From positions 1 through 31,145 of IMG/VR virus record IMGVR_UViG_3300020122_000231: a DNA stretch of 31,145 nucleotides. One strand, 5' to 3'. Shown piece by piece: positions 5,237 through 10,743 of the stretch (position 1 is the first letter of the stretch; every line of letters starts with the position of its first letter). Source of the stretch: a virus. Both the position numbers and the translations under genes were made by a program. Under the pieces are notes generated by a model that searched no databases, had not been told where the DNA came from, and was given only the letters and a program-made list of their open reading frames with translations.

Positions 5237-5346
5237 TTGCTCGCGTCCCGTTGCGCGAGGAGCTCGGCGCGGGCGGCCTGCAGGGCGGCAATCTTGTCGT
5301 CGAGCGCCTTGATGGCCTTGTCGAGAATCGTCAGACGTTTGCTCAT
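5233..5346 (-). CDS. 37-aa coiled-coil mini-protein
   Basis: ATG 5346 overlaps the exonuclease stop as ATGA, and its own stop overlaps the next ATG in the same way. The protein is one amphipathic helix with heptad-like leucines and isoleucines (LTILDKAIKALDDKIAALQ), so it may form a coiled coil. The tight coupling on both sides is the main evidence that it is translated. Confidence 0.5.
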   Translation of the reverse strand: MSKRLTILDKAIKALDDKIAALQAARAELLAQRDASK

Positions 5347-6329
5347 AGCCGCGTGATCTCCAAGGTGAAACGGCCCTTCGGATCGGTGATCGTGTATTGC
5401 TTCTTGAGATCAGCCGGCAGATCCACCCGCGATTGTTTGCCCCACTTGCCGACGACCTGAAACGGCCCGACGATGCCGGCCTCGACGCCGCGGAGGCGGG
5501 CCTTGACGTCCTTGTCGATCGCGTCGTACTCGTCCGCCGCGGCCTTGAGCGTTTCGCGCTTCTCGAGCGCGGCCTCGAGGTCGGGATCACTGAGCACGGT
5601 GGCGCCGACGGCGGACAGGGGCGGATTGCACGTATGGCCGTACCACGCGCAGACCCGACACTCGCCGGGATCGTCCGTCAGGAAATCCGGCAGCGTCCCC
5701 GCCGCGACGTGGTCGAGCGCTCGCTCGGCCCGCAGGAGAAAATCCTCCATCCGATCGAGATGCCGCTCGAGCTCCACGGGCAACAGGCGCGGAATGCCCG
5801 ACCGGTCGAGGAGCAGGAACCCGAACGGCTGGCCGGCGCCGTAGAGATACGCCAGGAGCTGATAGCCGCCGCCCCGCGTCCAGGGATTGCCGAACAGATC
5901 GTCAAAGGTCTCGATCCGATCGACCATCATCGGCGACCAGGCCTTGACCTCGAGCGGCGCCGTGACGCCGTCCACGCGCAATTGGGCATCGACCTTGCCG
6001 ACGATCGCCGCCCGGCCTTTGTGGTCCTTGAGCGTGAAGCGTTCCTGTTGCCCGATGACGGTGAAGGGGGGTTCGGCATCGCGGCCGATGCGCGTCAGGT
6101 CGGCGAGGAGATCGCGCTCGCGATCATCGCCGCGGCGGAACTTCGCGAGGACTTCCGGCGGCCAGGGCGGCAGGCGTTCGGGCTGGGTGAGCTCGTAGAC
6201 CATCCGCCGTTCGCAGACGCGCCAGGCGCTCGCATACACGTAGGCGTGTGGCGTCTGCGGCCGGCTCGTCGCGGCCAGGTACCCGGCCCAATTCGCGCTG
6301 ATCAGATCCGCGATCGCGTCGGGGGTCAT
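5343..6329 (-). CDS. PD-(D/E)XK exonuclease with Cas4/AddB-type Fe-S site
   Basis: A 328-aa nuclease. The catalytic motifs are Asp114 in GKVDAQ, Glu127-x-Lys129 in PLEVKAW, and Gln157 with Tyr161 in GGGYQLLAYLYG. One cysteine near the N-terminus (Cys39, WRVCERR) and three after the nuclease core (Cys224, 227, 234 in ECRVCAWYGHTC) give the four-cysteine arrangement that binds a 4Fe-4S cluster in Cas4 and AddB. It probably resects DNA ends for phage recombination. The C-terminal 90 residues contain a coiled coil. It begins 3 nt after the zinc-ribbon gene, so the two are likely made together. Confidence 0.85.
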   Translation of the reverse strand: MTPDAIADLISANWAGYLAATSRPQTPHAYVYASAWRVCERRMVYELTQPERLPPWPPEVLAKFRRGDDRERDLLADLTRIGRDAEPPFTVIGQQERFTLKDHKGRAAIVGKVDAQLRVDGVTAPLEVKAWSPMMVDRIETFDDLFGNPWTRGGGYQLLAYLYGAGQPFGFLLLDRSGIPRLLPVELERHLDRMEDFLLRAERALDHVAAGTLPDFLTDDPGECRVCAWYGHTCNPPLSAVGATVLSDPDLEAALEKRETLKAAADEYDAIDKDVKARLRGVEAGIVGPFQVVGKWGKQSRVDLPADLKKQYTITDPKGRFTLEITRL

Positions 6330-7333: not shown

Positions 7334-7597
7334 TTAGGCGTGATGCCGGGAGCGGCCGAAGGTGGGCGCGACGGTCTCGCCCTGCAGCCACCGCGTAATC
7401 AGAACGCCGGAATAACACTTCGGCCCGAGGGCCGGGCGAACTTTGAACTGGTCGAAGGCGCCGGCTTTCGCGAGGACATGGAATCGAGATTTCTTGATCT
7501 GCAGGATGGCCGCGAATTCGGTCGGACCGAGGAGCGCGCCGGTTTGCGCGTGCGCCCGGGCGGTCTCCGCCGAGAGGATCACGCCGTCCGGTTTCAT
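7334..7597 (-). CDS. Excisionase/AlpA-like winged-helix DNA-binding protein
   Basis: An 87-aa protein. Residues 24-70 contain GPTEFAAILQIKKSRFHVLAK, a turn, then YSGVLITRWLQGE, the arrangement of a MerR/Xis-type small winged helix (helix-turn-helix, two strands, helix). Such proteins bend DNA at attP to direct excision, or act as early regulators. ATG 7597 overlaps the end of the Cro-like frame as ATGA. It could equally be a second Cro-type regulator. Confidence 0.65.
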   Translation of the reverse strand: MKPDGVILSAETARAHAQTGALLGPTEFAAILQIKKSRFHVLAKAGAFDQFKVRPALGPKCYSGVLITRWLQGETVAPTFGRSRHHA

Positions 7598-7890
7598 ACG
7601 GCCTCGCCGCCGGCTGCCGCCGCCGCCAGGGCGCGATCGCGGCGCAGCTTCTTCCGCGCCCGTTCCACTTGGAGCTGGGTCGGCGTCATCGCCGGCCAGG
7701 CGATCGTCGAGGGCCGCACCTCGAGCACCCGGGCGATCGCGTCCCGTTACCGCTGGCGCAGCGGGGCGCCTTCGCCATGCTCAATCTGCCAAAAGCGGGT
7801 CTGGGTCAGGCCGGCGCGTGCCGCCAGGCCATGCTGGGTGAGATCCCGGGCGGCGCGGAGCACCCGGAGCGTCTGAGGAATTCTCGCCAT
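7594..7890 (-). pseudogene. Cro-like HTH regulator interrupted by in-frame TAA
   Basis: From ATG 7890 the frame runs to a TGA at 7594-7596, 99 codons in all, but codon 48 is TAA (7747-7749). The first 47 residues include a classic HTH pair (LTQHGLAARAGLTQTRFWQ, then IEHGEG). After the stop the frame continues sensibly with RDAIARVLEVRPSTI, the usual last helix of the domain. The C-terminal end is basic. A single change such as GAA or CAA to TAA would explain it. The overlap with the next ATG is kept. Alternatives are a functional 47-aa peptide, restart at ATG or GTG codons after the stop, or a sequence error. Confidence 0.75.
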
Positions 7891-7945
7891 ACCGGCCGAT
7901 CATTATTCCAACTGGTTCGTGCTTGCAATAGGATAAAATATCCAA
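7891..7945. promoter_or_regulatory. Divergent cI/cro-type control region with two operator-like repeats
   Basis: The sequence GATnnnnnnTCCAA occurs at 7898-7911 and 7932-7945, 34 bp apart, and each copy covers one -10 box. The second lies in a 13-bp palindrome, GGATAAAATATCC (7931-7943). For the minus gene: -35 TTGCAA (7923-7928), 17-bp spacer, -10 TAATGA (7900-7905). For the plus gene: -10 TAAAAT (7934-7939) with no good -35. Both predicted start sites fall at or within about 3 nt of the ATG, so the mRNAs would be leaderless or nearly so. Confidence 0.65.
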
Positions 7946-8365
7946 ATGGAAAAGCGACGCGCCCGGCTGAAGCATTCGCCCTACGATCGGAAACGGATGG
8001 CCGCCCAGCACCCGATTGATGCCGAGATCCGCGAGCGGCTCCGCAAGATCGCACCCCATCAAGTTGAGCTCGCGAAGCGGTTGGGCCGCAGTCCAGGCTG
8101 GGTGAACAAGTACATCAATGGCGCGGGTCACGCCACGATCGACGATGTGATCAGAATCGCCGCGGTTTTGATCGGCGTCGACGCGCTCCACTTGACGGAG
8201 ATGGAACTGCGGTTGCTCCGCGGGTGGCGGCGCCTGCCCGTCCACCGGCAGGAGGATGTCGTGGATCTGGTGGCGGCGTATGCCAGTCGGAAGCGCCGAC
8301 GATCAGGCGGGCGATCGGGCGGTACAGCTCGGGGTCCAAGCAACAAAGAGCCTGGTACACGATAA
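7946..8365 (+). CDS. CI-type HTH repressor, short form
   Basis: A 139-aa protein. The HTH (XRE) domain lies at about residues 30-75: QVELAKRLGRSPGWVNKYI, then ATIDDVIRIAAVL. It is divergent from the Cro-like gene and shares its operators, the classic position of a lysogeny repressor. There is no S24/LexA-type peptidase domain, so release would not be by RecA-driven self-cleavage. The C-terminus is basic and low complexity. ATG 7946 sits at the predicted transcription start; ATG 7997, with GGAAACGG before it, is an alternative start. Confidence 0.8.
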   Translation: MEKRRARLKHSPYDRKRMAAQHPIDAEIRERLRKIAPHQVELAKRLGRSPGWVNKYINGAGHATIDDVIRIAAVLIGVDALHLTEMELRLLRGWRRLPVHRQEDVVDLVAAYASRKRRRSGGRSGGTARGPSNKEPGTR

Positions 8366-8545: not shown

Positions 8546-9778
8546 ATGAGTCTCTATCGCGAGCAACACGCCGACGGCACATTCAAAACGGGCATCTGGA
8601 TGTATCAGGTGTACGTCAACGGCACGCGGGTCCGCCGCAGCACCGGGACGACGAACGAGCAGAAGGCCAAGCGGATCGAAGCGGCCGCCAAGACGGATAC
8701 CGATCGGGGCGCGCCGACCGCCGCCGCCGTCGGTAAGTTGCGCTGGACGCAGGCCGAGGACGGCATCCTCGCCGACTACGCCAACAACGAGTTCGACTCA
8801 CTCGAGGATCTGCAGGGCCGCCTCGATAATCATCTGACGCCGTTCTTCGGCAAGCGGACGCGGATGACCGCGATCGGCACCGCCCGGATCAATGCCTACA
8901 TCAAGCACCGGCGGGCGGCTGAGGCCGCCAACGGCACGATCAACCGCGAGCTCGCCGTCCTCAAACGGATGTTCACGCTCGCCGTCCAGGCCGGCCAGTT
9001 GATCTACGCCCCGTATATTCCGTCGCTGAAGGAACACAACGTGCGGAAGGGGTTCTTCGAGTACGAGCAGTTTCTCGCCGTGCGGCGGCATCTGCCCGTC
9101 GCGCTGCAAGGCGTCGCGACCGTGGCCTACATCACGGGCTGGCGCGTCGACAGCGAGATCCTGATCCACCAATGGGCGCGGCACGTGGACTTCGCCGGCA
9201 ACGAGCTCCGCCTGGAGGCGGACGAGGCCAAGAGCGACGAGCCGCGCACCTTCCCGATGACGGAGGAATTGCGCGCCGTCTACGTGGCGCAGGATGCGGC
9301 CCGGCAGGTGCTGAAGGACCGCGGCCAGATTTGTCCGTGGGTGTTCTTTCGGATGGTCGCGAAGGGTCGCCGCGGGCTCTCCCCGAAGCACGCCGCTCAT
9401 GCGGCCATCGTGCCGACGCCGCAGCCGATCAAGCGGTTCGACAAGGCGTGGGCGACGGCCTGCAAGGCGGCGGGCTGTCCCGGCATGCTGCGGCACGATT
9501 TCCGGCGCACGGCGATCCGCAACATGGTCCGGCGCGGCATCCCCGAGCGCGTCGCCATGCAGCTCTGCGGGCACAAGACGCGGTCCGTCTTTGACCGCTA
9601 CAACATCGTGAGTCCGGCGGACCTGCAGGCGGCGCGGACGCAGTTGGAGGACGTGGCCGGGGGCGGTGTCAATCCGCTGACAGCCAGTAAAACAGCCAGT
9701 TTGGCGGATCTGACGAGTCCCGCCGCGAGCAAACTCGCGAAAACCTTAAGGAAATTTGGAGGCGCCGCCCGGATTTGA
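8546..9778 (+). CDS. int: Tyrosine recombinase integrase
   Basis: A 410-aa integrase. The N-terminal part (res 1-55) has a beta-sheet arm-binding look, and residues 65-150 form a SAM-like core-binding domain (WTQAEDGILADY to LKRMFTLAVQ). The catalytic residues are Arg200 (TGWRVDSE), probable Lys229, His317 and Arg320 (LRHDFRRTA), His343 (CGHKT) and Tyr352 (FDRYNI). It inserts and, with a directionality factor, excises the phage. The last six codons and the stop lie inside the tRNA-derived attachment core, and codons near 380-386 contain two arm-type repeats. An AGGAG-type site precedes the ATG. Confidence 0.95.
   Translation: MSLYREQHADGTFKTGIWMYQVYVNGTRVRRSTGTTNEQKAKRIEAAAKTDTDRGAPTAAAVGKLRWTQAEDGILADYANNEFDSLEDLQGRLDNHLTPFFGKRTRMTAIGTARINAYIKHRRAAEAANGTINRELAVLKRMFTLAVQAGQLIYAPYIPSLKEHNVRKGFFEYEQFLAVRRHLPVALQGVATVAYITGWRVDSEILIHQWARHVDFAGNELRLEADEAKSDEPRTFPMTEELRAVYVAQDAARQVLKDRGQICPWVFFRMVAKGRRGLSPKHAAHAAIVPTPQPIKRFDKAWATACKAAGCPGMLRHDFRRTAIRNMVRRGIPERVAMQLCGHKTRSVFDRYNIVSPADLQAARTQLEDVAGGGVNPLTASKTASLADLTSPAASKLAKTLRKFGGAARI
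9681..9702 (+). repeat. Candidate arm-type integrase sites, left arm (2 copies)
   Basis: CAGCCAGTAA (9681-9690) and CAGCCAGTTT (9693-9702) are direct repeats 12 bp apart inside the integrase coding region. The same motif recurs on the other side of the attachment core, the arrangement expected for arm-type binding sites of a tyrosine integrase. Confidence 0.65.
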
Positions 9779-10196: not shown

Positions 10197-10460
10197 ATGG
10201 CGATGGAGTTCGACCCCGTCAAGGATGCCCGCAACCGGGAGAAGCACGGCATCAGCTTGGCGCGGGTCGACGAGCTGACCGATCGGATCGCGATCTACTC
10301 GCCGCGGCACGGGGAGGATCGCTGGGCCGTGATCGGGCGGCTCGACGGCCAGCTCTACACCGCCATCATTACCCGACGTGGCGCGAATACGCGCGCCATC
10401 AGTCTGCGCCGCGCCAGACGGCGCGAGGAACAAGACCATGCCCATGCGACAGCGAAATGA
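10197..10460 (+). CDS. brnT: BrnT-family toxin (DUF497, RNase-like)
   Basis: An 87-aa protein with the family pattern: MEFDPVKDARNREKHGISL (F-D-P-x-K...N..KHG), then DRWAVIGRLDGQLYTAIITRRG and ISLRRARRREEQ. BrnT is a RelE-like fold ribonuclease that slows translation and is blocked by BrnA. ATG 10197 coincides with the predicted transcription start, which would make a leaderless message; ATG 10203 (MEFDP) is an alternative. The 3' end overlaps brnA by 23 bp. In a temperate phage the pair may stabilise the lysogen or exclude other phages. Confidence 0.88.
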   Translation: MAMEFDPVKDARNREKHGISLARVDELTDRIAIYSPRHGEDRWAVIGRLDGQLYTAIITRRGANTRAISLRRARRREEQDHAHATAK

Positions 10461-10743
10461 CGACGACACGTATACCCCTGAAGAGATCACGCACGCCGTG
10501 CGCGCCGCTGACGGCCCCGAGGGCTTGCTGGCGGCGATGGCCGAGTCGAAACGGCGCGGCCGTGGCCGACAGAAGGCGCCGACCAAGCTGCTGATCACCC
10601 TGCGTCTGGATCGCGACGCGGTCGCCCGCTATCGCGCCACCGGGAAAGGCTGGCAGTCCCGCATCAGTGAGGACGTGCACAAGGCGTCGCTGCGGCGGCG
10701 GCGCGCGCCGGCCACGCGCACCAAGCGCCAGGGCGTCCGGTAA
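10438..10743 (+). CDS. brnA: BrnA-family ribbon-helix-helix antitoxin
   Basis: A 101-aa protein. The C-terminal half has the BrnA RHH pattern: RQKAPTKLLITLRLDRDAV, then RYRATGKGWQSRISEDV, and a basic tail. The N-terminal 45 residues (YTPEEITHAVRAAD) would wrap the toxin. BrnA with BrnT represses its own promoter, which fits the twin 15-mer repeats upstream. The start is set at MPMRQ inside the end of brnT, giving translational overlap. Confidence 0.85.
   Translation: MPMRQRNDDDTYTPEEITHAVRAADGPEGLLAAMAESKRRGRGRQKAPTKLLITLRLDRDAVARYRATGKGWQSRISEDVHKASLRRRRAPATRTKRQGVR

Follow-up and report, generated by a model that had tools for sequence, protein, structure and literature searches.

A lambda CRISPRi map scored cro as required for the lytic cycle, with the authors' caveat that polar effects on downstream genes cloud this knockdown (PMC10695390). 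Stop hops, between matched codons around a stop, have been demonstrated in synthetic constructs, and no natural in-frame stop hop is known (review PMC5009743). Here we describe a Cro-like gene that contains one nonsense codon, flanked by two identical codons, in an uncultivated temperate phage. The window, by which we mean the whole stretch of DNA analysed, corresponds to the whole virus record of 31,145 bases, and no terminal direct repeats were found in it. The feature appears to be mostly ordinary, an isolated single-base nonsense change that is either a real mutation or a sequencing error. The best reading is a nonsense lesion that probably makes a loss-of-function allele, with sequencing error close behind.

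The regulator frame and its switch setting

The Cro-like helix-turn-helix (HTH) regulator gene lies on the minus strand at 7594..7890, with its ATG at 7890-7888 and its final TGA at 7596-7594, and on read-through it has 98 codons up to the final stop. Translation from the ATG gave MARIPQTLRVLRAARDLTQHGLAARAGLTQTRFWQIEHGEGAPLRQR, followed by a TAA at 7749-7747 (codon 48), then RDAIARVLEVRPSTIAWPAMTPTQLQVERARKKLRRDRALAAAAAGGEAV and the final TGA. The TAA was the sole internal stop of this frame. The Pfam family HTH_31 matched the read-through product at residues 7-61 (E 1.6e-7), a match that spans the TAA, and tblastn with the proteins of relatives (14 query ORFs, with one contig present in two copies) also passed through it. 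Because these alignments cross the TAA and 12 contigs encode the protein with a Glu at this position, the regulator is more than a chance open frame. The final TGA overlaps the ATG of the next gene (7597-7595) as ATGA at 7597-7594. The first-pass annotation had described an HTH frame interrupted by this TAA alone, with residues past the stop that complete the HTH domain and a final stop that keeps the overlap with the next gene, and all three points were confirmed.

The next gene (7334..7597, minus strand) encodes 87 aa and is weakly like small DNA-binding or excisionase-type proteins, and its homologues come after the regulator in several relatives. On the other side, a divergent HTH gene of 139 aa (7946..8365, plus strand), the probable lysogeny repressor, is followed downstream by a tyrosine integrase (8546..9778, plus strand). 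A homologue of this divergent gene adjoins the regulator in 11 of the 12 relatives. The regulator has a Cro/C1-type HTH fold, with an HTH domain as the best PDB match (E 2.5e-4) and 434 Cro among the matches, and by position it opens an early operon, with the probable repressor gene pointing away from it and a control region shared by the two.

Between the two genes, the element CCATTTGGATATTTTAT..ATTG at 7926..7950 is predicted to be a shared promoter/operator. The element, CCATTTGGATATTTTATTcCATTG, is conserved in six aligned phages and in the window extends over the divergent gene's start codon, which suggests that the repressor transcript is leaderless or has a very short leader. The element is a near-palindrome and is strongly conserved in phages whose flanks have diverged. 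A scan of the region for sigma-70-type promoters found nothing. From this layout we infer a lysogeny/lysis switch with a Cro and a repressor role for the two HTH genes. As judged from fold and position, the regulator would bind the shared operators and lower repressor transcription. The label 'Cro-like' given by the first-pass annotation thus stood as far as the fold and the position (a divergent HTH neighbour, the start of a gene series) are concerned, with operator binding and a lytic function as presumed parts of it.

Under the standard code, the gene gives a 47-aa product (7750..7890, minus strand) that, according to the family match and a structure model, has helices 1-3 with the HTH but not helix 4 or the C-terminal helix. 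The model was made with AlphaFold2 for the protein of the nearest relative, L005, with the family alignment; it had a mean pLDDT of 89 and showed helices at residues 8-14, 19-25, 30-38, 46-56 and 72-95. Residue 48 falls near the start of helix 4 (46-56), where the pLDDT is about 95, so in the model the stop costs nearly all of this helix and everything beyond, including helix 72-95. The HTH fold of the truncated product is therefore incomplete, as the stop lies near the start of helix 4. The HTH_31 cut-off was exceeded by the L005 protein (35.5 bits), by the read-through frame of the window and even by the 47-aa form. With part of the fold core and the long C-terminal helix missing, the 47-aa form should, judging from the model, be inactive; the C-terminal helix presumably serves dimerisation.

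The best internal start, a GTG at 7728, opens a possible reinitiation frame (7594..7728, minus strand) of 44 aa, in which a Pfam check found no family match, including no HTH. A restart as a regulatory device, one of two options raised by the first-pass annotation, therefore cannot restore the regulator. It could at most keep translation running into the overlapping next gene.

Codon 48 in relatives and the age of the stop

Scans of viral contigs in IMG/VR recovered the regulator gene in 12 contigs, representing 10 distinct sequences. Codon 48 was GAA or GAG, both Glu, in every one of them, the frame was open through this codon in all, and none of the 12 had an internal stop in the regulator. 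The nearest relative, L005, which is the same contig as L002, has GAA at codon 48 and shares 86% protein identity with the window regulator. A GAA or CAA codon had been expected in close relatives, and this was essentially what we found. Relatives that share the stop and a conserved 47-aa product, which would have spoken against a recent nonsense change, were not found among the 12 contigs, and a conserved short form is thereby ruled out. No other contig contained the window-specific 24-mer just before the stop, as a second assembly of the same phage would, and no relatives of the regulator were found in bacterial or archaeal genomes (genome_contigs) or among sequenced phages.

At the DNA level, the switch region, the BrnT-like region and the capsid genes of the window were 82-84% identical to L002, and most of the remaining genes could not be aligned. 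This patchy similarity indicates, at the sequence level, that the two are mosaic relatives. Two other loci were observed along the way. At 10197-10743 there are small adjacent genes, which by motif look like a BrnT/BrnA toxin-antitoxin pair, and the first is 93% protein-identical to its L002 counterpart, above most of the genome. A minus-strand gene at 5343-6329 is weakly like phage Cas4-domain exonucleases (phrog_1706, phrog_1990) and has conserved counterparts in L009 and L017, with 63-73% identity.

The age of the stop was judged from the codons around it. Between the window and L005, dN/dS was 0.22-0.33 for the codons after the stop and 0.04 for those before it, and the intact pair L005/L008 gave 0.14-0.26 after the same codon. 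Nonsynonymous differences over codons 49-75 amounted to 7.5 for window/L008 versus 10.0 for L005/L008. By these sequence comparisons there is no excess amino-acid change on the window branch after the stop, and the stop thus either arose long after the split from L005 or is not real. Across the window, the 26 frames checked (~7,700 codons) contained one internal stop in total, and the 25 frames other than the regulator were intact. The first-pass annotation had noted intact neighbours and a change that looks recent, and both statements agree with these counts, with the Glu kept in relatives and with the absence of excess change after the stop.

Three possible origins of the change were considered and rejected. 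The window and L005 differ at codons 47-48 by three changes within four bases, but a clustered mutation event is ruled out, since shuffling the 34 differences yields such a cluster in 74% of trials; that codon 47 is variable across the regulator family also counts against it. The quasi-palindrome CCGCTG-CGC-CAGCGG is perfect in the window and bulged in L005, but a template switch within it would leave the T unexplained. A templating copy elsewhere in the window was searched for and not found.

Real allele, error or recoding

We consider it somewhat more probable than the alternatives combined that the TAA is a real and recent loss-of-function allele in a phage or prophage population. A single-base change would have turned a Glu codon into TAA in the first gene of the leftward gene series of a temperate phage, the mutated gene being the Cro-like HTH regulator that faces the divergent HTH gene, the probable repressor. 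The presumably inactive 47-aa remnant would leave the early operon without this control, and the overlapping gene downstream may be less tightly coupled in translation. Were the gene to act as cro does in lambda, lytic growth of this copy would be impaired, or it would be a locked prophage; a gain for lysogeny, as the first-pass annotation proposed, is at most a possible effect. A real allele would show a temperate phage shortly after the loss of one half of its lysis/lysogeny switch.

A base-call or assembly error, with a sense codon in the true genome and an intact regulator, is the one serious competitor and has a substantial chance of being correct. Only one base is involved, all relatives found have Glu, and the lack of excess amino-acid change past the stop is what would be expected for a functional gene. 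The base differs from that of the nearest relative by a G-to-T transversion, and such changes also arise in libraries through oxidative damage. However, the TAA was the only nonsense codon in about 7,700 codons, and no frame break was visible. Nonsense changes would make up 2.9% of random single substitutions in these genes (4.7% for G>T/C>A), so rare that many other errors would usually be expected alongside. This low share and the lack of any other break make an error-rich contig unlikely, but a single stray error is possible. If the TAA is an error, it cautions against inferring a regulatory device from a single base of a virus contig.

Translational recoding, either a matched-codon stop hop on CGG-UAA-CGG or readthrough, would produce full-length regulator at a low level, with most ribosomes ending at 47 aa, and we regard it as very improbable. 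The stop is flanked by identical arginine codons (CGG-TAA-CGG, 7744..7752, minus strand), the frame past it is intact and conserved, and codon 47 is CGG, equal to codon 49, only in the window, a layout like that of the synthetic stop hops (PMC5009743). The take-off codon lies at the end of a GC stem, and folding of 71 nt of RNA compared with shuffles gave a z of -2.35 in the window and +0.52 in L005. In contrast to a conserved stop and context, as a programmed device would show, the relatives have Glu in 12 of 12 cases, and a hop would drop this invariant residue. The codon match is also modest and was spotted after the fact: in the window genes, 3.9% of sites have the same codon at i and i+2, and CGG makes up 2.5% of codons. 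UAA is moreover the least leaky stop codon. Readthrough as a regulatory device, the other option of the first-pass annotation, is thus unlikely, since the stop is missing from all relatives found and 8 other genes use TAA as their ordinary terminator. The specific version, a natural, stem-aided in-frame hop from CGG over UAA to the next CGG that yields a little Cro-like protein, adjustable in amount and shorter by one residue, is slightly less probable still and runs against the lack of any known natural case (review PMC5009743). It is also the only reading that would surprise.

A code with TAA as sense has the one in-frame TAA in its favour but is scarcely credible, because it is refuted by stop-codon usage in the window, where TAA terminates 8 of the 26 frames and is in frame in none but the regulator.

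Comparison with known systems

The locus shares with stop hops and T4 gene 60 bypassing the identical codons around a stop and a stem-loop at the take-off codon; it differs in that it is not conserved, has no 50-nt gap and is known from sequence alone. Compared to Cro/CI-type regulators (HTH_31, HTH_26, HTH_3; 434 Cro, 2CRO; the CapH N-terminal domain, 7T5U; C.AhdI/C.BclI), the HTH core fold is the same, the protein is likewise small and single-domain with a C-terminal helix, and the gene likewise faces a divergent HTH gene next to an integrase, whereas truncation at residue 47 sets the window copy apart. Characterised Cro proteins are weakly similar to it in sequence, and operator binding is here a prediction. 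The locus belongs to a small family made up of Cro-like/repressor pairs from uncultivated phages, with no relative in the sequenced-phage collection. In contrast to the described nonsense alleles of phage regulators, the case presented here comes solely from the sequence of an uncultivated contig, but it has the same make-up, one sense-to-stop change with the flanking coding sequence intact.
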